Below are positions 5,064 to 37,858 of a stretch of DNA of 60,000 nt, piece by piece. Position numbers and translations under genes: made by a program. The stretch spans positions 1-60,000 of the forward strand of contig JAKOVI010000027.1 in NCBI GenBank assembly GCA_029782135.1. The letters are read 5' to 3'. Each line of letters opens with the position of its first letter. The first letter of the stretch is position 1. The stretch comes from Bacillota bacterium. Its GTDB lineage: Bacteria; Bacillota; UBA4882; UBA10575. The notes below the pieces were generated by a model that was not told the DNA's origin, searched no databases, and saw only the letters and a program-made list of their open reading frames with translations.

Positions 5064-6269
5064 ATGAGAAAAATTATTGCCTGCTTGTCACTGCTCTTCT
5101 TTTTATCCTTTGTTGGTTATAAAGTAATCGAACGCATCAACTTGCAAAACCAGAAACAACCAACACAAGCCCGTTACCAAGCAACCACCGTTGTGAAAGT
5201 TTGGCCGACGCGCGCCCAATTATTGCGTGAGACCATAAAAACGGTCGGGGAAATTGCCACGGTCGAGGAGGCCCTGGTTCAACCCCGGGTCAATGGCCAA
5301 TTACTCCGCATCCTGGTAAAAGAAGGGGATCAAGTTGAAGCCGGCCAACTTTTGGCGGAGATTGACGACCGTTCCCTTCAAGTACAAATCCTTCAGTCGA
5401 AGCATAACTTAGCCATTCTCACCGCCAATCTTAACCAGGCCCTCCTGCGACTCGAGCAGGCTGCAGCAGAAAAAGAGCGGTACAGCGAACTCTTAAAACA
5501 CCGGTATATCTCACAACGGGAGTTTGAACAGAGCGAAAGCGCTTACTTCTCTGCCTACACCAACTGGCAAGTCTTGACCGAACAGCTCGCTACTGCCCAG
5601 GCCAACCATGAACTGCTTGAGCTGCAGTTGGCCCAGACGAAAATACATAGCCCTCTCTCCGGCGTAATCCTGAAACAACACGTTGTTGCCGGAACGAATG
5701 TTACCTCGGGTACCACACTCTTTACCATTGCGCCTTTGAACCGGGTTAAATTGAAGTTTCATTTGGACCAGAAAGAAGCAACGAAAGTCAAGCGAGGAAC
5801 AGCCATCGAATTTATGACGGATGCCCTGCCCGGTCAACGCTTTACCGGGCAGATCGAAGACTCATCACCGGTTTATGACCCGACCACGCGTACACTCGGT
5901 TTCACCGTGATTTTACCCAATGAGCCCATCAAACTGGAACCAGGAATGTTTGGAACGGTGGAGATTATCCTCCAGAGCAACCACCAGGCGATTGCCGTTC
6001 CCCAGGAGGCTTTGGTGACCCTGCAAGGTCAAAACGGCGTTTTTGTTGTTGATGCCACTCAGACCGCCCGCTTTAAGCCGGTGGAAACAGGAATCATCAT
6101 CGATCATTTGGTCGAAATCACTTCCGGGTTAAAAGAAGGGGAAGCGGTGGTGATCATTGGTCAAGCCCGCCTCCGCGATCAACAAAAAGTTGAAGTCCTG
6201 GTGGATGAGGAAACCCCGGTTGAATTCCAACCGAAAAATACCTCCGCCGGCAGGGAGGGACGCCAATGA
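5064..6269 (+). CDS. RND efflux periplasmic adaptor (HlyD/MFP family)
   Basis: Membrane-fusion subunit that bridges the inner-membrane RND pump and the outer-membrane channel. The 401 residues show an N-terminal membrane anchor (about 4-22), a first half lipoyl-like domain ('PRVNGQLLRILVKEGDQVEAGQ', ends given), a coiled-coil hairpin (about 110-190), a second lipoyl half ('SPLSGVILKQHVVAGTNV'), and beta-barrel and membrane-proximal domains ('LEPGMFGTVEI'). This is the full-length AcrA-like layout. The start is ATG behind GGGGAGG. The stop overlaps the next start (ATGA), so the two genes are coupled. Confidence 0.93.
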   Translation: MRKIIACLSLLFFLSFVGYKVIERINLQNQKQPTQARYQATTVVKVWPTRAQLLRETIKTVGEIATVEEALVQPRVNGQLLRILVKEGDQVEAGQLLAEIDDRSLQVQILQSKHNLAILTANLNQALLRLEQAAAEKERYSELLKHRYISQREFEQSESAYFSAYTNWQVLTEQLATAQANHELLELQLAQTKIHSPLSGVILKQHVVAGTNVTSGTTLFTIAPLNRVKLKFHLDQKEATKVKRGTAIEFMTDALPGQRFTGQIEDSSPVYDPTTRTLGFTVILPNEPIKLEPGMFGTVEIILQSNHQAIAVPQEALVTLQGQNGVFVVDATQTARFKPVETGIIIDHLVEITSGLKEGEAVVIIGQARLRDQQKVEVLVDEETPVEFQPKNTSAGREGRQ

Positions 6270-9200
6270 ACCTTACGTCGCTCTGTATTCGCCGCCCGGT
6301 AACCACGACCATGATCTTCCTGATCCTGGTCTTACTCGGTCTCTTTAATAGTGCGCAAATGCCAATCGATCTGTACCCGGATATAGCTTCCCCCGCGGTC
6401 AATATCAGCACCACCTACTCCGGGGCCGGTCCCGAAGAAGTGGAACAATTGGTCACCATCCCGATCGAACAAGCGGTTGCCACCGTTAACCGCGTAACTG
6501 CGGTGTCTTCTTCATCCCAGGAAGGCCGGTCGTGGGTGACGGTCTACTTTAATTGGGGGGTTAACCTTGAGCAAAGCATCGATGAGATCCGGACCAACCT
6601 GGACCGGATCGTCAGGCGCCTCCCGGATCAAGCCGGAACCCCGACAATTAATCGTTTTGATCCCTCTGCCGCCCCCATTATGACCATTGGCCTCTCCGGG
6701 CAAATGGATGAGTCTTTCCTCCGCAGTATTGCTGAGAATGAGATCAGCCCGGAGTTACAAAAGATTGACGGCCTGGCCAATGTCGAAGTCCGGGGCGGCC
6801 GTAACCGCCGCATCACCATCGCCCTGAAACGGGAACGGCTGGCCGCTTTCGGGCTCACTATCAGTCAAGTCGCTTCCGCGATCCGTAACGAGAATATTAT
6901 CCTGCCCGCCGGCAGTCTGGAGACAGAAACCAGTGAAATATTATTACGGACCACCGGTAAGTTGGAAAGCGTCGCCGAGCTCAAAGAGATCATCGTCGCC
7001 TACCGGAACGGTATCCCCCTCTACCTGCGTGACTTGGGGACAGTGGAAGAAACGTTAACGGGGGTGGAAACACTGGTCCGGATCGACCAACAACCCGGCA
7101 TCGTGTTGTCCCTCCAAAAACAGTCGGGCGCCAATACAGTCGCGGTTGCGAATGAAGTGTATGCCATTCTTTCCACCCTCCAAAACAAATATCCGGAACT
7201 GAACCTCCGGGTCTTAAATGATACTTCGACTTTTATCCGTGAGTCGGTCAGTGGCGTGGCCAATGCTGCGCTCTGGGGCGCCCTCCTCGCCGGGTTGGTA
7301 CTGCTTTTTTTCTTACAAGACTGGCGTGCAACCTTAATCGCCGGAGTTGTCATGCCCGTTTCCATCCTCGCCACCTTGGTCATTACTTATTTCTTTAAAA
7401 TGACTCTCAATACAATCTCGCTGGGGGGCTTGGCCCTCGGTGTCGGAATGTTGGTTGATAATACCGTCGTGGTAATCGATAATATCTCCCGCAAACTGGA
7501 GGATCCCGCCCTCACCCCCGCTGCGGCGGCTCTGGAAGGAACCAACGAAATGCGTTTGGCACTGCTGGCTTCGACGCTGACCACGGTCTGTGTCTTTTTT
7601 CCCGTTATTTATCTCTCCGGGCGCACCGGGATCGTCTTTAAAGAACTGGCCTACATGGTGATCTTCTCGCTCCTCTGCTCCTTTGTGGTGGCTGTTACCC
7701 TGGTCCCCATGTTAAGCGCCAAGTATTTAAAACAAAAAAACCGGCACCGGCCGGAAGAAGGTAAGGAGAGTTATTTATCAGCCCTGCAAAAACGGTGGGA
7801 GCATTCCTACCGTAACCTCCTCGCCTGGTGTCTTGCACATAAAACACTGGTCGTTCTGGGCTGTCTTTTCCTTTTTGCCATCACTTTGCTGATTTGGCCG
7901 CTAATCGGAACTGAATTAGTCCCGGCCACCGACGAAGGGATAATTTCAATCTATTGTACGCTTCCACCCGGCACAAAACTGGCCGAAACAGACCTCCAAG
8001 CCCAAAAGTTTGAAGCGCTGATCGCCCAAATTCCGGAAGTGGAAAATATAGAGGTTTCGGTCACCAACACGCGGGCCAACTTTACGTTACGGCTTCACCC
8101 CCGCTCGAAACGGCAACGTTCAACCAATGAGGTGCTCGAAGAGCTTCAGAAGAAATTGGTACTGCCCTACGCGGGGGCAAGCTTACGGATTAATGCCCGC
8201 AATTCTATGCGGATGCTCTACAGTTCTTCCGATTCCGCGATCGTCATCGATCTGCGCGGTTACAACCAGGAACTGGGCCGGCAAACGGCCGAGATCATTG
8301 TCTCCCGTTTGAGCGCGCTGCCGGGGATCTCCAATGTCGCGATCTCCCGGGATGCGGAAGAACCGGAGTTCAGGGTTGCGATCAATCGCCAACGCGCCGC
8401 CGATTTAGGGGTATCGACCGCCCGGATCGCGGAGACGATTCAGTCTGCTTTCGTCGGGGTAACGGCAACGACGATCCGGAGAAACGGCGAGGAACTACCT
8501 GTCCACCTTAGTTTACAGGATGCCGATAAAGCTTCAATCCAAGATGTCGGCCGGCTGCTCGTTCCGGGCCGGAATAACCAGCTCTTTCCTTTATCCAGTA
8601 TGGTGGAGATCAAACTTAGCAACAGTCCGGTCTCGATCCAGCGTAAAGACCGGGAACGCAATATCGCGGTGACTGCCCGGTTAACAGAAGGGGCTGATCT
8701 GGCGGCCACGATCCGCCTCATCCAGGCAGAACTGAAAGATCTCCAGTTACCGCCGGGCTTTAACCTCTATTACGGCGGAGATTTTGAAGAACAACAACGC
8801 AGTTTCTCCGAGTTAAGATTGGCCTTAATTATGGCTGTTCTTTTGGTCTATATGGTGATGGCTTCCCAATTCGAGTCCCTGTTGGACCCGTTCCTGATTA
8901 TGTTCTCCCTCCCGTTTACCCTCGGAGGTGTGCTGCTCATGCTCTTACTGACCAACACCTTAATTAACACCCAAGTCTATATCGGCCTCATCATCTTAGC
9001 CGGGATTGCCGTCAACAACGGCATTGTCCTGATCAGTTATTTCCGTTTATTATTAAGCCGCGGCCTGCCTTTACACGAGGCGGTTCTCTCGGGCTCCGCC
9101 GCCCGCCTGCGTCCGGTATTAATGACCAGCATCACCACGATCTTCGGTTTAACCCCACTTGCCTTGGGAATTGGTACCGGGTCGGAATTACAAGCACCAA

Positions 9201-10687
9201 TGGCCCGGGCGGTTATTGGCGGTCTCAGTTTTTCGATGCTCCTCACCCTCGTCTTAATTCCGGTCCTCTTTACCGCTGTTACGGAGCGGGTAAACAAAGC
9301 CCGGTCACATCACCGGCTAGCCCGCCCTGCGGCTAACGGGCTAGCAGCCTTCATCCTCCTGTTCGGCCTGGTACTGGGTTGCACCCGTCCGGCCTGGGCC
9401 GGAACAGGAACGGCCAACCTCACTTTGGGGGAAAGTATCAAACTGGCTCTCGCCCAGAGTGAAGACGGCCAAATCATTCTTTACCAGCGGGAGCGGGCAG
9501 CCAGCAGCTTACGGGAAGCAGGTGGCGACAAAGCCCTCCAAGCCTACTCTGACTTCAAGGCCGGAACCGGCCCGACACCGCTTTCGGTTGGACTCAATTT
9601 GGAAAAGAGTCTCCCCTTGACCAATCTGTGGGGTGTAACCTCATATACCGAAACAATTACCTTACAAAATCACCAGTTGACCCTTTTCTCCCTCGAACTC
9701 CAGGAAGAGCAGCTCATTTCCCGGATCATCTCTGCTTACCAGCAGGTCCTCCTCACCGGCCGCCGCCGGGAGTTGGCCAAGCAGAACCTCCAGCAGGTTC
9801 AGGCTTTTTCTGAAGAAGTCAAGCTCAAGTCCGAATTGGGTTTAACAAATATCGTCGAAGAAACTAGAGCCCAGGCGCAACTGGCTGCCGCGGAGAGCGG
9901 GTTGGTCCGGGCGGAGCAACAATACCAGTTGGCTGTCTTTAATTTAAAGCGGCTCTTAAATCTTGATCCCCAGGATGAACCAGCCTTAGCCCCATTACCA
10001 GCTGTAAACTATACCGGGGATCTGGAAACTTTAATCCAAATTGCCGCCGCCCGGCGGTCTGATCTCAAACAGGCAAAAATCAGGATCAACCAGGCGGAAA
10101 CCTTGCTCGCTCTGGCTAAACTCGCAAACAACCTGGGAATCGGCTTAAATTGGAACTTCACCGCCCCTAATCTCTCGGCCGACCTTAGCCTTTCCAACCA
10201 AACCCAAGGCCGTACGACCGGCGAATGGGGCGTGGCTGCTAAAACCGGACTGGTGATTAACACCCCCGGCTTTAAAACTGACGGCCAAAGCAAACTGGAG
10301 TTAGTCCTCCGCTGGAACTGGTTGGATGGCAACCGCCGACAGGAACGGATCGTACAAGCAGAATTAGTACGGGAGCAACAGGAAGCTGAATTACGAAAAC
10401 TGGAGAAGACCATTGAATATGAGGTTACCGAAGCCTATTACCGCTTCCTTGACCAGCAGAACAATATCACAACCAGTGAATTGCAACTCATCTATAACCG
10501 GACCAATTGGGAAGCCCTCCTGGCGAAATACCGGCTCGGACTGGCTTCGATTAAAGAGGTGCTCGATGCCCAGCTACTCCTTGCCCAGGCGGAAACAAAC
10601 TTTGAACAGAGTAAAGCCGATCTGTTCCTGGCCTATATCGATCTGCTCAAGGTCACCGGCCAGCTGCGGGAGGCCCCTTTCCATTAA
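6266..10687 (+). CDS. RND (HAE1-type) efflux permease fused to a TolC-family outer-membrane factor
   Basis: One uninterrupted 1473-residue frame holds two proteins that are normally separate. Residues 1 to ~1010 are a complete RND permease: N-terminal TM1 with 'RRPVTTTM', porter domains, TM4 'LGVGMLVDN' with proton-relay Asp398, and TM10 'GIAVNNGIVLISYF', where AcrB has a lysine. Residues ~1025-1046 form a new signal-like helix with a possible lipobox (VLGC, Cys1039) and a possible AWA/G cut (1045/1046). Residues ~1046-1473 are a full TolC-like domain with two alpha-helical OEP repeats ('LTLGESIKLALAQSE', 'RRSDLKQAKIRINQAE'). No in-frame ATG, GTG or TTG lies at the junction, so the channel has no separate start. 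Substrate unknown. Confidence 0.9.
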   Translation: MNLTSLCIRRPVTTTMIFLILVLLGLFNSAQMPIDLYPDIASPAVNISTTYSGAGPEEVEQLVTIPIEQAVATVNRVTAVSSSSQEGRSWVTVYFNWGVNLEQSIDEIRTNLDRIVRRLPDQAGTPTINRFDPSAAPIMTIGLSGQMDESFLRSIAENEISPELQKIDGLANVEVRGGRNRRITIALKRERLAAFGLTISQVASAIRNENIILPAGSLETETSEILLRTTGKLESVAELKEIIVAYRNGIPLYLRDLGTVEETLTGVETLVRIDQQPGIVLSLQKQSGANTVAVANEVYAILSTLQNKYPELNLRVLNDTSTFIRESVSGVANAALWGALLAGLVLLFFLQDWRATLIAGVVMPVSILATLVITYFFKMTLNTISLGGLALGVGMLVDNTVVVIDNISRKLEDPALTPAAAALEGTNEMRLALLASTLTTVCVFFPVIYLSGRTGIVFKELAYMVIFSLLCSFVVAVTLVPMLSAKYLKQKNRHRPEEGKESYLSALQKRWEHSYRNLLAWCLAHKTLVVLGCLFLFAITLLIWPLIGTELVPATDEGIISIYCTLPPGTKLAETDLQAQKFEALIAQIPEVENIEVSVTNTRANFTLRLHPRSKRQRSTNEVLEELQKKLVLPYAGASLRINARNSMRMLYSSSDSAIVIDLRGYNQELGRQTAEIIVSRLSALPGISNVAISRDAEEPEFRVAINRQRAADLGVSTARIAETIQSAFVGVTATTIRRNGEELPVHLSLQDADKASIQDVGRLLVPGRNNQLFPLSSMVEIKLSNSPVSIQRKDRERNIAVTARLTEGADLAATIRLIQAELKDLQLPPGFNLYYGGDFEEQQRSFSELRLALIMAVLLVYMVMASQFESLLDPFLIMFSLPFTLGGVLLMLLLTNTLINTQVYIGLIILAGIAVNNGIVLISYFRLLLSRGLPLHEAVLSGSAARLRPVLMTSITTIFGLTPLALGIGTGSELQAPMARAVIGGLSFSMLLTLVLIPVLFTAVTERVNKARSHHRLARPAANGLAAFILLFGLVLGCTRPAWAGTGTANLTLGESIKLALAQSEDGQIILYQRERAASSLREAGGDKALQAYSDFKAGTGPTPLSVGLNLEKSLPLTNLWGVTSYTETITLQNHQLTLFSLELQEEQLISRIISAYQQVLLTGRRRELAKQNLQQVQAFSEEVKLKSELGLTNIVEETRAQAQLAAAESGLVRAEQQYQLAVFNLKRLLNLDPQDEPALAPLPAVNYTGDLETLIQIAAARRSDLKQAKIRINQAETLLALAKLANNLGIGLNWNFTAPNLSADLSLSNQTQGRTTGEWGVAAKTGLVINTPGFKTDGQSKLELVLRWNWLDGNRRQERIVQAELVREQQEAELRKLEKTIEYEVTEAYYRFLDQQNNITTSELQLIYNRTNWEALLAKYRLGLASIKEVLDAQLLLAQAETNFEQSKADLFLAYIDLLKVTGQLREAPFH

Positions 10688-30800: not shown

Positions 30801-30816
30801 TGTTTCACGTGAAACA
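30801..30816. promoter_or_regulatory. parS centromere site (perfect)
   Basis: TGTTTCACGTGAAACA matches the ParB/Spo0J 16-bp palindrome exactly. It lies between rsmG and parA, about 7 kb from oriC. ParB would load here, spread, and direct origin segregation. Confidence 0.97.
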
Positions 30817-31102: not shown

Positions 31103-31864
31103 ATGAGTAAGGTTTTTGCGGTTGCCAACCAAAAAGGAGGAGTTGGCAAAACTACCACGGTGGTGAACTTAAGCGCTTACCTCGCTGTTTTAGGAAAAAA
31201 GGTGTTGGTGTTGGATAATGATCCGCAAGGAAATGCCACCAGTGGCCTGGGGATCGAAAAAAGAAACATCAAAAAGTGTATTTATGATGTTTTAATTAGT
31301 GAAGTGCCAATCGAGGAAGTGATCTTGCCGACACAAGTCTCTGATTTGTATACCGTGCCGGCAACACTCCGCTTGGCCGGCGCTGAAACGGAACTTGTCG
31401 GAATGATGGCGCGGGATCAACGCTTACGACGTTCAATCGAACCAATTCGTCACCAGTATGATTATATTCTAATTGATTGCCCGCCATCACTCGGTAACCT
31501 GACCATTAATGCCCTGGCGGCCGCCGATGCCGTGATAATTCCCATCCAGTGCGAATACTATGCCTTGGAGGGGCTTTCGCAATTGATGCATACCCTGCAA
31601 ATGGTGCAGAAGTTTTATAATTCAGCTTTGGAGATTGAAGGGGTCGTCCTAACCATGTACGACCAAAGGACAAACCTTTCGCAACAAGTAGCGGAAGAGG
31701 TGCGGAATTATTTCAAAGAGAAAGTCTACCAATCGATTATTCCTCGAAATATTCGCCTTAGTGAGGCCCCCAGTCATGGGGTTCCCATTAATTTATATGA
31801 TGACAGATCAAAAGGCGCTGAAGCCTATCTGGCTCTAGCGAAGGAAGTGGTTGCCCATGAGTAA
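31103..31864 (+). CDS. parA: ParA/Soj chromosome-partitioning ATPase
   Basis: Walker-type ATPase that binds DNA in its ATP form and interacts with ParB for origin segregation; Soj also modulates DnaA. The 253 residues have the deviant Walker A 'KGGVGKTT', 'LDNDPQGNATSG' and 'YILIDCPPSLGNLTINAL'. In the Walker A' motif the usual 'DxDPQ' reads DNDPQ. ATG start behind GGAGGGGG. Overlaps parB by 8 bp. Confidence 0.96.
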   Translation: MSKVFAVANQKGGVGKTTTVVNLSAYLAVLGKKVLVLDNDPQGNATSGLGIEKRNIKKCIYDVLISEVPIEEVILPTQVSDLYTVPATLRLAGAETELVGMMARDQRLRRSIEPIRHQYDYILIDCPPSLGNLTINALAAADAVIIPIQCEYYALEGLSQLMHTLQMVQKFYNSALEIEGVVLTMYDQRTNLSQQVAEEVRNYFKEKVYQSIIPRNIRLSEAPSHGVPINLYDDRSKGAEAYLALAKEVVAHE

Positions 31865-32738
31865 ACCTCGTGCTTTAGGTAAGGGACTGGGAGCGTTAAT
31901 TCCCCAGCTGGAGGAAGAAGATCTACAGAATACAATGGAAATCCCGATTGATGAGATCGAACTTAATCCCTTTCAACCCCGGCGCACCTTCGATCAAGAG
32001 AGTCTTAATGAGTTGGCCGGGTCGATCAAGATCCATGGAATCCTCCAACCATTGGTCGTTCGAAAAAAAGATCACCGGTATCAGTTGATTGCCGGTGAGC
32101 GCCGTTTGCGTGCCGCAAAACTGGCGGGCTTGGAAACGGTGCCGGTGATCATTAAAGAGCTCGATGACAGGGCGGTCATGGAGATTGCACTGGTCGAGAA
32201 TTTGCAGAGAGAAGACTTAAATCCAATTGAAGAAGCCGAAGCCTATCAAAAGTTGATTGAAGAATTCTCGTTGACGCAAGAAGAGGTGGCGAAGGCGGTT
32301 GGAAAGAGCAGAACGGCGATTACGAACACATTACGCCTCCTCAACCTTCCGTCGGAGATCCAACAAATGGTTTTAGAGAACAAACTCACGATGGGCCACG
32401 CCCGCGCCCTCTTAGGGTTGGAGTCGGTTGACCAACAGCTTTATCTCAGTAAAAAAGTGATCGATGAGCAGTTATCGGTACGCAATACAGAAGAGTTGGT
32501 TCGTCTAATGAACGCCTCCCCGGAGGTTCCACGTGAAACGTCAGCAGAAACAAAGAAAGAACTTTCTACCCGGGAAGATCAGCTTGATCCCAATCTTCAA
32601 GCGATTGTCGATGATATGACCAGGTTGTTTGGGACCAAAGTCCGGATTAAAACCAGTGGTAACCGGGGTAGAATTGAAATCGAGTATTATTCCCAAGAGG
32701 AACTGGAAAGAATTACCGAGATTCTCCTCAGTTTATAG
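31857..32738 (+). CDS. parB: ParB/Spo0J chromosome-partitioning CTPase
   Basis: Binds parS, then clamps and slides on DNA using CTP. The 293 residues show 'IELNPFQPRRTFDQESLNELA' (ends given), the CTP-binding 'GERRLRAAKLAGL' and 'ENLQREDLNPIEEAEAY', an HTH ('LTQEEVAKAVGKSRTAITNTLRLL', ends given) and a C-terminal dimerisation region. I chose ATG 31857 (AAGGAAGTGG upstream) over a TTG two codons earlier. A near-perfect parS copy lies inside the gene. Confidence 0.96.
   Translation: MSKPRALGKGLGALIPQLEEEDLQNTMEIPIDEIELNPFQPRRTFDQESLNELAGSIKIHGILQPLVVRKKDHRYQLIAGERRLRAAKLAGLETVPVIIKELDDRAVMEIALVENLQREDLNPIEEAEAYQKLIEEFSLTQEEVAKAVGKSRTAITNTLRLLNLPSEIQQMVLENKLTMGHARALLGLESVDQQLYLSKKVIDEQLSVRNTEELVRLMNASPEVPRETSAETKKELSTREDQLDPNLQAIVDDMTRLFGTKVRIKTSGNRGRIEIEYYSQEELERITEILLSL
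32525..32540. promoter_or_regulatory. Second, imperfect parS site inside parB
   Basis: GGTTCCACGTGAAACG matches the parS palindrome at 13 of 16 positions, with the central CCACGTGAAAC intact. B. subtilis also carries a parS within spo0J, so this placement is probably conserved. Confidence 0.75.
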
Positions 32739-33045
32739 CAAAAACATAAGATGTTTTTAAAGAACGGAGCGCCCAAAACCCCCAGATTAAACAGGAAAAG
32801 AAAGCGGGCGAACAAATGTTCGTAATGGCAGTTACCCAGGGAAGTTGAGTCTGATAACGACAGAGGACGATGAGACACGAGGAGCCTTCCCTTCCGAAAA
32901 GAGAATGACGGCTATTGCGGGATTGGACGAGAGGTTCGTAAGCCGGCTAAAAATTTTTGGAAAAAGATGAGCCGGGTTGAAAGGATGTAGGAATCCTGTC
33001 CAGAATAATAATTATTAATGAACGGTTATGAAGAAGGAGCGTTTC
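32739..33045. other. Gene-free gap after parB containing a LexA-box-like palindrome
   Basis: About 307 bp with no convincing gene. CGAACAAATGTTCG (32809-32822) fits the Gram-positive SOS box CGAAC-N4-GTTCG exactly. No clear promoter overlaps it and the next gene begins over 200 bp away. No known riboswitch was recognised. Confidence 0.5.
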
Positions 33046-33552
33046 GTGGTGAATGTAACATCATCTCTCAGCAGTTTATCTTTCCAGGAAAAGCTGGTCC
33101 TTTATGTCTTTCTCTTCCAAGTGTTGTGTCTGCTTCTTTTGGCAATCAACGGAACCGTGCTTAAAAAACTCCTCAACCGTTACCGGCATCTTTTGTCCGG
33201 TGATCGTCCGCAGAATCTTGAAGAGTTATTGCTAACTTTAGGGGAGAGAATAAATAAGATCGAGACCGAGCTGAAAGCGGTTGAAGAGCGGGTCGCGAAA
33301 ATGGAAGAGGAGTCGATCAATTACATACAACGCTGGGCGCTCCACCGTTATCAGGCGTTTGCAAATACCGGCGGGGACCAAAGTTTTTCCTTTGTTTTAT
33401 TGGATAAAAAAGGCGATGGCGTGCTAGTTAGTAGTATTTTTGGACGGGAAGAATCGCGGACCTACGCGAAATCAATTCAGGGAGGAAAAGCGAATTACCC
33501 GTTATCCGATGAGGAACATGAGGTTTTAGTAAAAGCGATCCAGAAAAAATGA
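33046..33552 (+). CDS. DUF4446 family protein
   Basis: A 168-residue protein of unknown function that often lies beside parAB in Clostridia-type genomes. It has one N-terminal membrane segment (about 17-36), a predicted coiled coil (about 60-95, 'LGERINKIETELKAVEERV'), and the conserved C-terminal domain 'RYQAFANTGGDQSFSFVLLD' then 'SIFGREESRTYAKSI' and 'YPLSDEEHEVL'. GTG 33046 is favoured because AAGAAGGAG lies 6 nt upstream; the ATG at 33028 would use that site as coding. The membrane anchor suggests an envelope role near the segregation machinery. Confidence 0.82.
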   Translation: MVNVTSSLSSLSFQEKLVLYVFLFQVLCLLLLAINGTVLKKLLNRYRHLLSGDRPQNLEELLLTLGERINKIETELKAVEERVAKMEEESINYIQRWALHRYQAFANTGGDQSFSFVLLDKKGDGVLVSSIFGREESRTYAKSIQGGKANYPLSDEEHEVLVKAIQKK

Positions 33553-33685: not shown

Positions 33686-34141
33686 ATGAAAGAGAATCGC
33701 AATTTTCGGCGGAGAACAAACTGCGTTAGCGGTGATTTGATGGACAAGCGGCCCGTAAAGAGGGAGTGCTGGTTAAAGCGCTTTATTCGAAAGAAAAATG
33801 GAACCGGTTATACTATGATGCTTGTCCCCCATTGTTCGGGGATGGCACGTAGTATACATATTCCTTTTTTTGTCGCAGTCATTTTCGTTTTCTTATTCAT
33901 TGCCAATGTTTATTTCCTTGTCCGTTACCCCTTACGCCTTACAGAGATCAATGAACTTGATCGTACGATTTACCAATTAAATGATGTGATCGCGCGGAAT
34001 GATAATGATATCAGATTAATTGAGCCTTCAATCAAGAAGACCGAGGAATATACAGCCACTGTCGAGACACACAGCAAGCTGATTGCCGAACTTGAGGCCT
34101 TACTGAAGTCGATTAATGATAAAAAAGCAGGTAAACTATGA
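33686..34141 (+). CDS. Anchor-only paralogue of the adjacent M23 peptidases (no catalytic domain)
   Basis: The 151 residues match the N-terminal parts of the next two M23 proteins. All have 'GYTMMLVP', a short basic/polar segment ending IP, a single membrane helix (about 61-80), then 'VRYPLRLTEI' and a predicted coiled coil. The protein stops at residue 151 with 'NDKKAGKL', where the paralogues continue into the LytM domain. The stop is clean and I see no remnant of a peptidase after it. The start is uncertain: ATG 33686 lacks a good ribosome site and ATG 33740 has only GGTGA. It could be a regulatory or scaffold subunit that hetero-oligomerises with the peptidases. Confidence 0.7.
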   Translation: MKENRNFRRRTNCVSGDLMDKRPVKRECWLKRFIRKKNGTGYTMMLVPHCSGMARSIHIPFFVAVIFVFLFIANVYFLVRYPLRLTEINELDRTIYQLNDVIARNDNDIRLIEPSIKKTEEYTATVETHSKLIAELEALLKSINDKKAGKL

Positions 34142-34197
34142 ACAGAGTTTAAGAGGGGCGGCTTAGCCAAGGATAAAGTTGGGATTAGGAGTCAGGG

Positions 34198-35187
34198 ATG
34201 ATTACGAAGATGAATAAAGGGATAAGAAAAATCTTTTGTTGCCTCAAAAAGACACAGCGGCATGGATATACCTTTATGGTTTTTCCCAATAAAACCGGGT
34301 GTATTAGGTGTATCTATATTCCTTTTGTGATTTTTGTTGCCTTTTGGTGTTTGATGGGCGTTAATCTTTACTACTTATGCCGTTACCCATTACGGATTGC
34401 AGACATCATAAACCGTGAACAGGTTATTTATCTTGCAAAGCAGGAGATTGGGGAGCAGGAAAAGAAGCTGCGCCGGATTGACCCGGCCATTCAGACCACT
34501 CATCAGTTGGAAGCAACGATTAACCAGCATAACCGGATGATCCTGGACTATAGTGCCAAGTACGAGCAGGTGAAGAATAACCTTTCTGCCCAGAAAGCCC
34601 TAAGCCGGGTCGGGAGTTTCCGTCCATTCCAGTTACCTACCTATACACTGACCAGTGCCGACTCGGAATTGGTTAAACTAAGTGTGCTCAACCGGAATCT
34701 TGAGTCTTTAGAAGAAGAACTGCAGATTTCCGAGAAGAAACTGAAAGAACTCCATGCCAAATATACCGCATATAATGTCGAACTGGACTATACACCTACG
34801 ATTTATCCGTTGGTCGTGAAAGGGTATATCACTTCTTATTATGGTTACCGGCGCGATCCAATCACCGGCCGCCAAGATACCTTCCATGACGGGATCGATA
34901 TTGCCGTCCGCGCCGGTACTCCCGTCCGGGCGACCGCGTCAGGAACGGTTACAATCGCCCGTAATGTTGGTACATATGGATTGCTGGTTGAGATTAAACA
35001 TGGTAATTATGGTTATTCGACACGTTATGCACATAATAGCAAAATACTCGTTAAGCCCGGACAAACCGTAAAAAAAGGCGACCTGATTGCTTATGTCGGC
35101 AGTACCGGTAAAAGTACCGGGCCTCATCTTCATTATGAAGTCCGGTATAAGAATAAGACGGTTAATCCTAGAAACTATCTACCGTAA
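34198..35187 (+). CDS. Membrane-anchored M23 (LytM) peptidase, first copy
   Basis: A 329-residue wall endopeptidase-like protein. It has 'GYTFMVFP' and a membrane helix (about 41-61), 'CRYPLRIADI', a long coiled coil (about 65-195), then an M23 domain (about 210-329) with zinc ligands His230 and Asp234 ('HDGID') and His312 ('HLHYEV'), all intact. Such enzymes cut peptide crosslinks in peptidoglycan. The start is ATG, 6 nt after AGGAG. It is followed 16 bp later by a bactofilin, an arrangement known from shape-determining modules. Confidence 0.9.
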   Translation: MITKMNKGIRKIFCCLKKTQRHGYTFMVFPNKTGCIRCIYIPFVIFVAFWCLMGVNLYYLCRYPLRIADIINREQVIYLAKQEIGEQEKKLRRIDPAIQTTHQLEATINQHNRMILDYSAKYEQVKNNLSAQKALSRVGSFRPFQLPTYTLTSADSELVKLSVLNRNLESLEEELQISEKKLKELHAKYTAYNVELDYTPTIYPLVVKGYITSYYGYRRDPITGRQDTFHDGIDIAVRAGTPVRATASGTVTIARNVGTYGLLVEIKHGNYGYSTRYAHNSKILVKPGQTVKKGDLIAYVGSTGKSTGPHLHYEVRYKNKTVNPRNYLP

Positions 35188-35203
35188 TTAGAGGAGGACA
35201 ACA

Positions 35204-35617
35204 ATGGGAAAAGCAGCAATGGAAGTCGGCAACAAAAAGATTGATACCCTCATTGGTAAAGACTCAAATTTAGTGGGGACGATCGAATCAACGGGGACGA
35301 TCCGGGTCGACGGGAAATTTGAAGGGGAAATTACCACCAAGGGTGATTTGGTTATTGGTGAAAGTGGACAAGTCCAGGGGAAGATTAAAGCACAGAATAT
35401 TGTGATTGCCGGTCAGGTCCGCGGCGAGGTTGAAGCTGGCGGTAAATTGGAACTGGTTCCGACCGGAAATCTCCAAGGCGAGGCCAAAATGACCCTGCTT
35501 ATTATCGAAGAAGGCGCTGTTTTCCAAGGAAACTGTCAACAATTATCCAAGGATCAAAAAGAGAAAGGGCGTTTCTTACAGATCGACACGCCGAAAGAGC
35601 AACCTCCAGTAAAGTAA
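35204..35617 (+). CDS. Bactofilin, first copy
   Basis: A 137-residue bactofilin (polymer-forming cytoskeletal protein, DUF583). The middle is a short right-handed beta-helix made of repeats such as 'GTIRVDGKFEGEITTKGDLV', 'GESGQVQGKIKAQNIVIAG' and 'VRGEVEAGGKLELVPTGNL'. N- and C-terminal tails are disordered. Bactofilins polymerise without nucleotide at the cytoplasmic membrane and position wall enzymes. ATG follows AGAGGAGG. It is directly downstream of an M23 peptidase and followed by a weak terminator. Confidence 0.92.
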   Translation: MGKAAMEVGNKKIDTLIGKDSNLVGTIESTGTIRVDGKFEGEITTKGDLVIGESGQVQGKIKAQNIVIAGQVRGEVEAGGKLELVPTGNLQGEAKMTLLIIEEGAVFQGNCQQLSKDQKEKGRFLQIDTPKEQPPVK

Positions 35618-35635
35618 AGTATGCCAAAGAAAAAT

Positions 35636-35665
35636 TAGCCCGGTCTTTTACGGGCTAGTTTTGTT
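35636..35665 (+). terminator. Weak intrinsic terminator between the two peptidase-bactofilin modules
   Basis: TAGCCCG (35636-35642), 8-nt loop, CGGGCTA (35651-35657), then GTTTTGTT. It may give partial read-through into the second module. Confidence 0.6.
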
Positions 35666-35790
35666 CTGGGGTCCGGTGAGAAGATCGTCTCAGTTAAAGG
35701 AAGGTCTACGCTCTTTCTTTATTATGACAGGATCAGTTAAGCGAGTGAAGTATTATCTCCTAAGAGAAGATCGATTTGATGGTGGATTCG

Positions 35791-36762
35791 ATGAGAGAAG
35801 CCATAACCGGCAACTTATTGACGAAAACCAAGAAAGTTTTCGCCAAAACAGTAAAGAGAGGATATGCGTTGATGGTGATCCCCAATTCGCAGGGCACCAT
35901 CAGGTGTTTCAGTATACCATACTTGGTTTTCCTCTCAGTCTTTGTTTTGTTTGGAATTAACACCTATTTCTTGTGCCGTTACCCCTTCCGGATCACCGAA
36001 ATTATGAAGTTGGAATCCGAAATTAACAGTTTGCAGAGTATCATCTCCAAGCAGGATAAAGAATTACGGAGGCTTGATCCATACCTCCGCGCCACACAAG
36101 AAATTGAGAGCGATTTGAACAAAGCCAACAAGTTTCTGGTTAAGATGGAAAAACAGTATCTGGAGGTCCGTAACCGGAAAAGTACGGAAGAGTTAAGTGT
36201 ACGATTGGTGAACCTTCCCCAGTATAAATTGTCGAGTACGGACCGCGAATATTCCAAATTAGCCGTCCTCAATGATAATCTGGAGTATTTGGCGGAGGAA
36301 ATCTCCTATACAACATCTTCTTTACAGGATCTCTTGACGAGATATAAAGATTACGATCGCCAATTGGATTTCACCCCGACGATCTGGCCGTTAGCGCGTG
36401 AGCGTAGTATATCTTCGGGTTTTGGCTACCGTAGACACCCGATTTATAAACGGTTGATTAAGCACCAAGGAGTTGACATTCCTTGCCGGCAAGGGACCCC
36501 GGTGCGTGCCACTGCGGAAGGGAAGGTTACGATTGCCGGCGTGCGCGGAGGATATGGCCTATTAGTTGAGATTGATCATGGATACGGTTACCGTACCCGT
36601 TACGGTCATAACAGCCGGGTGGCCGTCCGGGTGGGCCAGTGGGTGAAAAAGGGGCAAACAGTTGCCTATGCCGGTAATACGGGAACAAGTACCGGAGTCC
36701 ATGTTCATTATGAAGTGCGGGTCAATGGTGTTCCCGTCAACCCAGTTCCCTATATGAAATAA
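35791..36762 (+). CDS. Membrane-anchored M23 (LytM) peptidase, second copy
   Basis: About 323 residues with the same layout as the first copy: 'GYALMVIPNSQG', one membrane helix, 'CRYPFRITEI', a coiled coil, and an M23 domain with 'HQGVDIP' and 'HVHYEV' zinc-ligand motifs intact. The copies are diverged, so the duplication is old. ATG 35791 is preferred (GGTGG 5 nt upstream); starts up to 35776 are possible. The stop overlaps the first possible start of the next bactofilin gene. Confidence 0.88.
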   Translation: MREAITGNLLTKTKKVFAKTVKRGYALMVIPNSQGTIRCFSIPYLVFLSVFVLFGINTYFLCRYPFRITEIMKLESEINSLQSIISKQDKELRRLDPYLRATQEIESDLNKANKFLVKMEKQYLEVRNRKSTEELSVRLVNLPQYKLSSTDREYSKLAVLNDNLEYLAEEISYTTSSLQDLLTRYKDYDRQLDFTPTIWPLARERSISSGFGYRRHPIYKRLIKHQGVDIPCRQGTPVRATAEGKVTIAGVRGGYGLLVEIDHGYGYRTRYGHNSRVAVRVGQWVKKGQTVAYAGNTGTSTGVHVHYEVRVNGVPVNPVPYMK

Positions 36763-36776
36763 TGAGGAGAGTTGTG

Positions 36777-37130
36777 GTGCCGAAGATGAGTCAGAACCAA
36801 AGAGCCGAAACGATCATTGGCGATGCGACCAGTTTTAAAGGGACAATCATTTCGAAAGAGAATATCCGGATTGATGGTAAACACGAAGGCGAGCTTACGA
36901 CCCAACGGGATCTGGTAATCTCGGAAAGCGGTCAAGTCAAAGGGATTGTACAAGCGGATAATATCCTGCTCGGCGGCTCGCTGGAAGGGGAGTTAAAGAG
37001 CACGCACAAATTAATGCTCCTGCCCAGTGCAAGTTTTCAAGGAAAAGCGGAAATGGTTACTCTAATCATCGAAGAAGGAGCCCGTTTCCAGGGCGAATGC
37101 CAGCAGAAAGAGAAAGAAAAGAGGAAATGA
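36777..37130 (+). CDS. Bactofilin, second copy
   Basis: About 117 residues with the beta-helix repeat pattern 'ENIRIDGKHEGELTTQRDLVI' (ends given), 'SESGQVKGIVQADNILLGG' and 'EGELKSTHKLMLLPSASFQGKAEM'-type turns. GTG 36777 is preferred, 7 nt after GAGGAG; an ATG at 36762 overlaps the previous stop. It is shorter than the first copy and has a basic tail (KEKEKRK). It may co-polymerise with the first bactofilin or form a separate filament paired with the second peptidase. Confidence 0.9.
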   Translation: MPKMSQNQRAETIIGDATSFKGTIISKENIRIDGKHEGELTTQRDLVISESGQVKGIVQADNILLGGSLEGELKSTHKLMLLPSASFQGKAEMVTLIIEEGARFQGECQQKEKEKRK

Positions 37131-37204
37131 AAGAAATACGCTTCTGAGATCCCGGTGGCAAGGCCGGAGAAAACAGGGAGAATTGGTATCGACCTCAAAA
37201 CAGG

Positions 37205-37232
37205 AACGCCCCATCAACGGGGCGTTTTTTTT
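37205..37232 (+). terminator. Intrinsic terminator ending the bactofilin cluster
   Basis: AACGCCCC (37205-37212), 6-nt loop, GGGGCGTT (37219-37226), then TTTTTT. The rest of the 281-bp gap 37131-37411 shows nothing else I can name. Confidence 0.85.
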
Positions 37233-37411
37233 ACACTGTCTTCCCGATCAGGAACTCTTTGGGAAGAGATGCGTTTTCTTTAGGAGAGGTCGATCCGATT
37301 ATTCCTCTATTTTTCCTTAATTAGCCAGTTGTAATTTCTGTTGTTAAAGGGTCATAGGTTTTGAACTATTATTGAAGGGAAAAACATGGCGGAAAACCAT
37401 ATGATAATTAG

Positions 37412-37858
37412 GTGAGTTTTATGTGGTATGAACCAGCCAAAACCAGTGCCCAAAAAATCTTGGCTGCGAAATTGCAGGCGGAGAAGATCGTCTTTTACGA
37501 AAACCAGCAACTTGAAGGATGGGAAGTCGATATTTACATTCCCGACTACTATTTGGTTGTGGAAGTGGACGGTTTTTATCATTTATCCACTAAGCAGCAG
37601 GCCAAAGATTTAGAGAAAGATTCCCAATTGCGGGCGGCCGGATATCATGTTTTGCGTTTTACGAATGCCCAAATCTATCAGGATGGTTCAAGATGTGTCC
37701 AAGAGATCAAAGAGCTGATTGCGGGGCATGGTCAAAGGATAAAGGAAGCGGAAAGGGTCGAAGCGCCAAAGCAGCTTTGGCAGGATCGTCTGGCCGAGTT
37801 AAAGGAACAAATGCAAAACAAAGAAAAAAAAGACCCCGGTGGAGACCGGGGTCAATAA
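37412..37858 (+). CDS. DUF559-type endonuclease-like protein
   Basis: A 148-residue protein with a PD-(D/E)XK-like core of the DUF559/Vsr-related group: 'SAQKILAAKLQAEKI', 'GWEVDIYIPDYYLVVEVDG' with the acidic residues, then 'DLEKDSQLRAAGYHVLRFTNAQI' (ends given). The family's biological role is generally unknown. The charged tail (about 110-148) is not part of the fold, and its last codons lie in a terminator hairpin that serves the opposite strand. Single gene, convergent with the gcv operon. Confidence 0.78.
   Translation: MSFMWYEPAKTSAQKILAAKLQAEKIVFYENQQLEGWEVDIYIPDYYLVVEVDGFYHLSTKQQAKDLEKDSQLRAAGYHVLRFTNAQIYQDGSRCVQEIKELIAGHGQRIKEAERVEAPKQLWQDRLAELKEQMQNKEKKDPGGDRGQ
37822..37855 (-). 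terminator. Terminator for the gcv operon, overlapping the DUF559 gene end
   Basis: GACCCCGGT (37832-37840), GGAG, ACCGGGGTC (37845-37853). On the minus strand a run of eight T follows. The stem codes for the last residues of the convergent DUF559 protein. Confidence 0.85.

Follow-up and report, generated by a model that had tools for sequence, protein, structure and literature searches.

Why should genes for cell-wall peptidases and bactofilins stand directly behind the segregation genes parA and parB, and does this place tell us what they do? The question is raised by a 60,000-nucleotide stretch of DNA (the window) from an uncultured, two-membraned (diderm) member of the Bacillota (GenBank assembly GCA_029782135.1, contig JAKOVI010000027.1, positions 1 to 60,000). 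The window covers the origin region of a genome whose closest relatives with a name come from anaerobic digesters, one of them labelled Hydrogenispora sp. Along its + strand the order is yidC, mnmE, mnmG, rsmG, parS, parA, parB, DUF4446, an anchor-only gene, M23a, BacA, M23b and BacB. An earlier note, made from the letters alone, had described the last five genes as a repeated membrane peptidase-bactofilin module and had suggested that it links origin position to local peptidoglycan cutting. Corrections to gene starts aside, the five genes indeed lie on the + strand where that note had placed them.

Here we argue, with a probability of about 0.72, that the cluster is a cell-shape module of the LmdC-bactofilin type, expanded by duplication and sitting in an inherited place by the origin. 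The argument draws on gene content, homology, catalytic residues, a predicted hairpin, duplication history, purifying selection and linkage.

Two M23 enzymes with an LmdC-type N-terminus

Pairs of an M23 gene and a bactofilin gene are known in 226 species (PMC10945521). In the best precedent for our purposes, LmdC, an M23 endopeptidase carries a cytoplasmic beta-hairpin directly before its membrane helix, and this hairpin docks on the bactofilin; in Hyphomonas neptunium the N-terminus of LmdC binds that organism's BacA in vitro with a KD of about 15 uM, and in Rhodospirillum rubrum mutations in the LmdC hairpin abolish bactofilin-dependent placing (PMC10945521). Hairpin-bactofilin binding and endopeptidase activity have been demonstrated by others in homologues, and by analogy both would extend to the proteins considered here.

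In the window, M23a adjoins BacA and M23b adjoins BacB. An AF2 model of M23a (45 homologues, mean pLDDT 88) has strands at residues 24-28 and 37-41, a helix from 43 to 92 that covers membrane and coil, further helices to 197, and a LytM fold, so that the cytoplasmic beta-hairpin, single membrane helix and coiled coil of LmdC are all recovered in the model as well as in motif statistics. The predicted strands lie directly before the membrane helix, in the position of the LmdC hairpin; as modelled, the N-terminus common to M23a, M23b and the anchor-only protein is an LmdC-type hairpin plus transmembrane helix, that is, the known docking element. The shared architecture that the earlier note had remarked upon in these three proteins therefore stands and has a counterpart in a characterised system. 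Of 56 M23 proteins encoded beside a bactofilin gene outside the taxonomic family of the window genome (hereafter the family), 52 carry the hairpin motif, as opposed to 4 of 814 other long open reading frames (ORFs) at the same loci; three further M23 proteins of the window genome with readable N-termini lack it.

Both enzymes end in an M23 domain with an intact H-D-HxH set. The catalytic and zinc residues of M23a (H230, D234, H310 and H312) are invariant over the 45 homologues, and alignment places the same residues in M23b; the anchor-only protein lacks the domain altogether. Among solved structures, those closest to M23a include ShyA/NMB0315 and the Helicobacter shape enzymes Csd1-Csd2.

Two bactofilins, one without a tail

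BacA and BacB reach 99.8 and 89.1 bits against PF04519 (cut-off 27.9), each with a full-length core that matches the solved bactofilins 6ria and 2n3d and that retains the C-terminal Phe of the GA(x)FQG segment. Beyond the core, BacA carries a tail, K(E/D)RGKxLxxxTP (35540-35617, + strand), that is conserved class-wide and is present in 0 of 12 BacB proteins, a pattern which suggests a specific binding partner for BacA. Note that a bactofilin alignment over the whole phylum proved too diverse for the collection scan, so that a class-level alignment was used.

Neither protein has the MFxKK-type N-terminus known as the membrane-targeting start of bactofilins (PMC12448750). The motif is rare throughout the family (1 of 26 bactofilins), compared to 18 of 30 in the other members of the phylum that were sampled.

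The link to parB is real and old

In the window, bactofilin genes follow parB in the same orientation and near the origin, which recalls the parAB-bacM arrangement of Myxococcus. The earlier note had counted absence of this linkage from all relatives against its own reading; a survey of gene neighbourhoods shows the contrary. In a sample of 61 genomes from the phylum, 35 have parB 1.5 to 7 kb upstream of a bactofilin gene and in the same orientation. Counting by family, and treating a family as informative only where contigs were long enough, 16 of 18 are linked and 2 are not; in one unlinked genome (G049) bactofilin and M23 genes lie together, far from the origin. Linked loci, picked by similarity to BacA, include Moorella, Pelosinus, Thermovorax and other Bacillota as well as Nitrospirota, Nitrospinota, Aminicenantes, Calditrichota and Latescibacterota. 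A second survey began from parB and was hence unbiased toward bactofilins. Here, parB is immediately followed by a bactofilin gene in 19 of 29 Nitrospirota, 17 of 30 Acidobacteriota and 8 of 29 members of a third phylum (reached via a record labelled Deltaproteobacteria), and the two genes often overlap. The linkage is real and old, and the gene order of the window, which recurs in relatives, is not a product of chance. For ParB neighbourhoods in general, one paper describes bactofilin genes as a less frequent feature (PMC10653881).

The surveys also turned up variants of the region. Three Nitrospirota loci (L173, L181, L187) have two consecutive bactofilin genes directly behind parB with no M23 gene between them. 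At seven others (L061, L063, L064, L066, L067, L073, L074) parA lies between two ParB-family genes, one Noc-like and one Spo0J-like, upstream of the bactofilin module; the window genome, unlike these, has a single ParB-family gene.

DUF4446, the gene between parB and the cluster, yields a confident AF2 model (pLDDT 90) with no match in the PDB below E 0.2, and a literature search returned no paper naming it. It is a conserved membrane protein of the parB region of Bacillota, occurring with and without bactofilins: eight bactofilin-negative genomes carry it in the retained position, which rules it out as a bactofilin-specific partner.

What the linkage means

Having established that the linkage exists, we asked how it should be read. 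The earlier note had looked to BacNOP of Myxococcus xanthus, where, as here, several bactofilins are encoded together and there is a ParABS context. BacNOP, however, are encoded in a separate operon and reach ParA through a ParB-like adapter, PadC (PMC5703909), and no PadC-like adapter exists in the window genome, where ParB itself is the sole ParB_N protein. The parAB-linked bactofilin of Myxococcus is BacM, which lies behind parAB, is co-transcribed with them, and is reported to be dispensable for segregation and to act in cell shape (PMC3899335, PMC5703909). BacM shares with the window a place directly in the parAB neighbourhood, although M23 and anchor genes are lacking there. Together with this precedent and the missing adapter, three further observations lead us to regard the place behind parAB as inherited, perhaps with joint expression near the origin: M23-bactofilin pairs away from parB stay paired (L072, L060 and Aerophobetes loci), DUF4446 keeps its place without a bactofilin, and mnmE, mnmG and rsmG accompany parAB just as constantly.

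Shared expression might, of course, be the whole point. Gene dosage close to the origin, or transcription running on from the par operon, could time wall remodelling to the replication cycle without any contact between scaffold and origin. The genes lie on one strand, no terminator-like hairpin was found in the parB-DUF4446 or DUF4446-anchor gaps, and the co-transcription of parA, parB and bacM provides a parallel; yet 290 bp separate parB from DUF4446, and in other lineages several kb (up to 7 kb) of unrelated genes intervene between parB and the DUF4446-M23-bactofilin genes. We regard this explanation as possible but on the whole unlikely.

A more far-reaching scenario is the one put forward in the earlier note, where the scaffold is tied to ParA or ParB and local peptidoglycan cutting follows the origin. 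Linkage across informative families and other phyla, often to the immediate next and overlapping gene, is what such coupling would predict, and BacNOP-PadC-ParA shows that bactofilins are able to place ParABS. Against it, BacM is reportedly not needed for segregation; nor does the genome encode a second ParB_N protein that could act as PadC does, and the pairs exist and hold together without parB. Moreover, with mnmE, mnmG and rsmG just as conserved beside parAB, a conserved place is weak evidence of joint work. The suggested link between origin position and wall cutting is accordingly not borne out, and we consider it improbable that it governs this locus or that the scaffold is physically coupled to the origin at all. 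Equally doubtful is a broader version, in which bactofilins linked to parB have been partners of ParABS since ancient times and across phyla, and the cluster forms a two-filament scaffold with two cutters and one enzyme-free tether, tying envelope remodelling to the segregating origin.

Spore formation is common among relatives of the lineage, and a SpoIIQ-type M23 profile and structure are among the matches, so that the M23 proteins might instead act like SpoIIQ in engulfment. This is very improbable: the two proteins score 64 and 59 bits against the NCBIfam SpoIIQ model, whose cut-off is 250 and which ranks far below their best match, and the same parB-bactofilin order occurs in Nitrospirota and Acidobacteriota, which are not known to make endospores.

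Duplication and an enzyme-free copy

The family itself records how the cluster grew. Two of its genera (g3, g4) have one pair, in the order DUF4446-M23-bactofilin, and four (g1, g2, g5, g6) have anchor-M23-Bac-M23-Bac. Trees give a single origin each for the anchor-only gene, M23a, M23b and BacB, the last as one clade with support of 100/100; judged from these sequences, all three anchor-bearing genes and BacB arose once, by duplication inside the family. Pfam content, single origins and recurrence in relatives all uphold the earlier description of a repeated module.

The anchor-only protein has no Pfam domain of its own; by homology it corresponds to M23a residues 16-127 (E=2e-19). It is retained in 12 of 12 genomes of the duplicated lineage, as 12 orthologues of one origin, and its dN/dS to a congener (0.084) is similar to that of the enzymes. 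Over hairpin and coil the orthologues are 75% identical, compared to 58-64% for M23a and M23b. By these comparisons it is an LmdC truncated after the first coil and a functional gene under purifying selection. An apparent second case, in a relative from another family (G024/L055), turned out to be an M23 gene that has lost an internal stretch and still shows remnants beyond its stop codon, and was not counted as enzyme-less. Such decay does happen at this locus, and the anchor-only gene and BacB are each shorter than their parents, but as both are found in all 12 duplicated-lineage genomes and evolve under purifying selection (dN/dS between congeners 0.084 and, for BacB, 0.055), the idea that they are decaying leftovers of duplication is largely refuted and barely credible.

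A model for the module

How might the parts work together? For localisation, docking in this organism, the role of the anchor and the division of labour between the pairs, we infer the following. The genome gives three Omp85 hits and also encodes a TolC-type protein, so the cell is diderm and its wall lies in the periplasm. BacA and BacB would polymerise into filaments beneath the inner membrane. M23a and M23b, each spanning the membrane once, would be recruited to the filament through the N-terminal cytoplasmic beta-hairpin, and their coiled-coil stalks would hold the zinc D,D-endopeptidase domains in the periplasm over chosen stretches of wall. Because the enzymes would be docked on the filament, cutting of cross-links in the peptidoglycan would be confined to its position. 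Most likely, the anchor-only protein docks in the same manner without cutting and serves to tether the filament, to set the spacing of the enzymes or to pair up with the coils of the enzymes; tethering would matter since BacA and BacB are without the usual membrane-targeting N-terminus.

Three considerations weigh against our interpretation. The docking data all come from homologues outside the lineage, and the structural model is one of M23a rather than of a complex. Second, the adjacent and overlapping parB and bactofilin genes of several phyla could yet reflect a shared function. Third, the single-pair genera of the family lack both the targeting motif and an anchor-only gene; loss of the motif, which these relatives share, is therefore unsupported as the cause of the anchor gene and alone does not explain it.

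Layout of the locus and neighbouring genes

Table 1. Position of the par genes, the peptidase-bactofilin cluster and associated signals in the window
Feature	Position	Strand	Evidence
parS, exact 16-bp consensus TGTTTCACGTGAAACA	30801..30816	+	0 mismatches
parA	31103..31864	+	Pfam AAA_31 1.8e-68
parB, overlapping parA	31851..32738	+	Pfam HTH_ParB 1.3e-41, ParB_N 8.3e-37
DUF4446 (N-terminal membrane helix, coiled coil, small beta domain)	33028..33552	+	Pfam 7.4e-41
Anchor-only LmdC paralogue, with hairpin, membrane helix and first coil but lacking the M23 domain	33740..34141	+	homology to M23a
M23a, LmdC-type bitopic M23 endopeptidase	34198..35187	+	Pfam M23 E=6.8e-36
BacA, bactofilin with C-terminal tail	35204..35617	+	Pfam bactofilin 1.1e-28
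Terminator-like hairpin with T-rich tail, between both pairs	35632..35666	+	hairpin scan; weak
M23b, second LmdC-type M23 endopeptidase	35779..36762	+	Pfam M23 1.1e-33; alignment
BacB, second bactofilin (core only, tail lost)	36777..37130	+	Pfam bactofilin 2.4e-25
Terminator-like hairpin and T tract 3' of BacB	37203..37236	+	hairpin scan; weak

The sign of the GC skew changes near dnaA, at 22.6-24 kb of the window, and the parS site compares with a chance expectation of 0.23 matches even when 3 mismatches are allowed. The anchor-only gene is where the earlier note had it, but the start proposed there, 33686, is an upstream in-frame ATG; 33740 is the most likely start because orthologues of 131-136 aa align at that position. 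For M23b the most likely start is 35779 or 35791, and for BacB, judging from a good ribosome-binding site, the GTG at 36777.

Within each pair the genes are tightly packed: 16 bp lie between the end of M23a and the start of BacA, and the stop codon of M23b overlaps the BacB reading frame. Hairpins comparable to the one between the pairs occur in 5 of 11 other two-pair relatives, so that the two pairs may be expressed separately. Note that a promoter and terminator scan of the region gave counts no better than shuffles, so that the hairpins 3' of BacA and BacB are weak evidence only.

The cluster is followed by a gene for a DUF559 protein (37412-37858, + strand), of a family related to restriction/Vsr-type nucleases; the same holds for most genomes in the taxonomic family and for several genomes from related ones. 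Elsewhere in the window, a 1473-aa ORF (6266-10687, + strand) joins a complete RND pump (ACR_tran, residues 5-1005) to a TolC-type outer-membrane efflux domain (OEP, 1253-1465), with an HlyD-type fusion protein encoded upstream: an inner-membrane pump fused to its own outer-membrane channel.

Comparison with known systems and significance

The closest parallel to the cluster is LmdC-BacA of Hyphomonas neptunium and Rhodospirillum rubrum (Pohl et al. 2024, PMC10945521), where the M23 gene likewise adjoins the bactofilin gene and where the enzyme is bitopic, with a cytoplasmic beta-hairpin, a membrane helix, a coiled coil and a C-terminal M23 domain that keeps its zinc site. The window differs by its two pairs of enzyme and bactofilin and by a third LmdC that lacks the enzyme, by belonging to another phylum and by the place of the cluster behind parAB-DUF4446. 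Helicobacter, with Csd1-Csd2-Csd7-CcmA and Csd5 (PMC9507126), also combines a bactofilin, two related M23 proteins and non-enzymatic membrane proteins that stabilise or anchor. There, however, Csd2 is an inactive enzyme, whereas both M23 proteins of the window keep their catalytic residues; the non-enzymatic partners Csd7 and Csd5 are other proteins, whereas the window's is a cut-off copy of the active enzyme itself; and there is one bactofilin rather than two.

New here are the doubling of the cluster, the enzyme-free LmdC kept in it under selection, and a linkage measured over several phyla. Bactofilin-M23 pairs are known from model proteobacteria; in the sampled Bacillota they are a standing feature behind parAB, and in Nitrospirota, Acidobacteriota and one further phylum a bactofilin stands alone directly behind parB. 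With the survey, the misleading parallel to BacNOP also gives way to the proper one, BacM. Finally, the enzyme-free LmdC copy amounts to a natural experiment in which the docking part has been kept without the enzyme, allowing the role of hairpin and coil to be probed alone.

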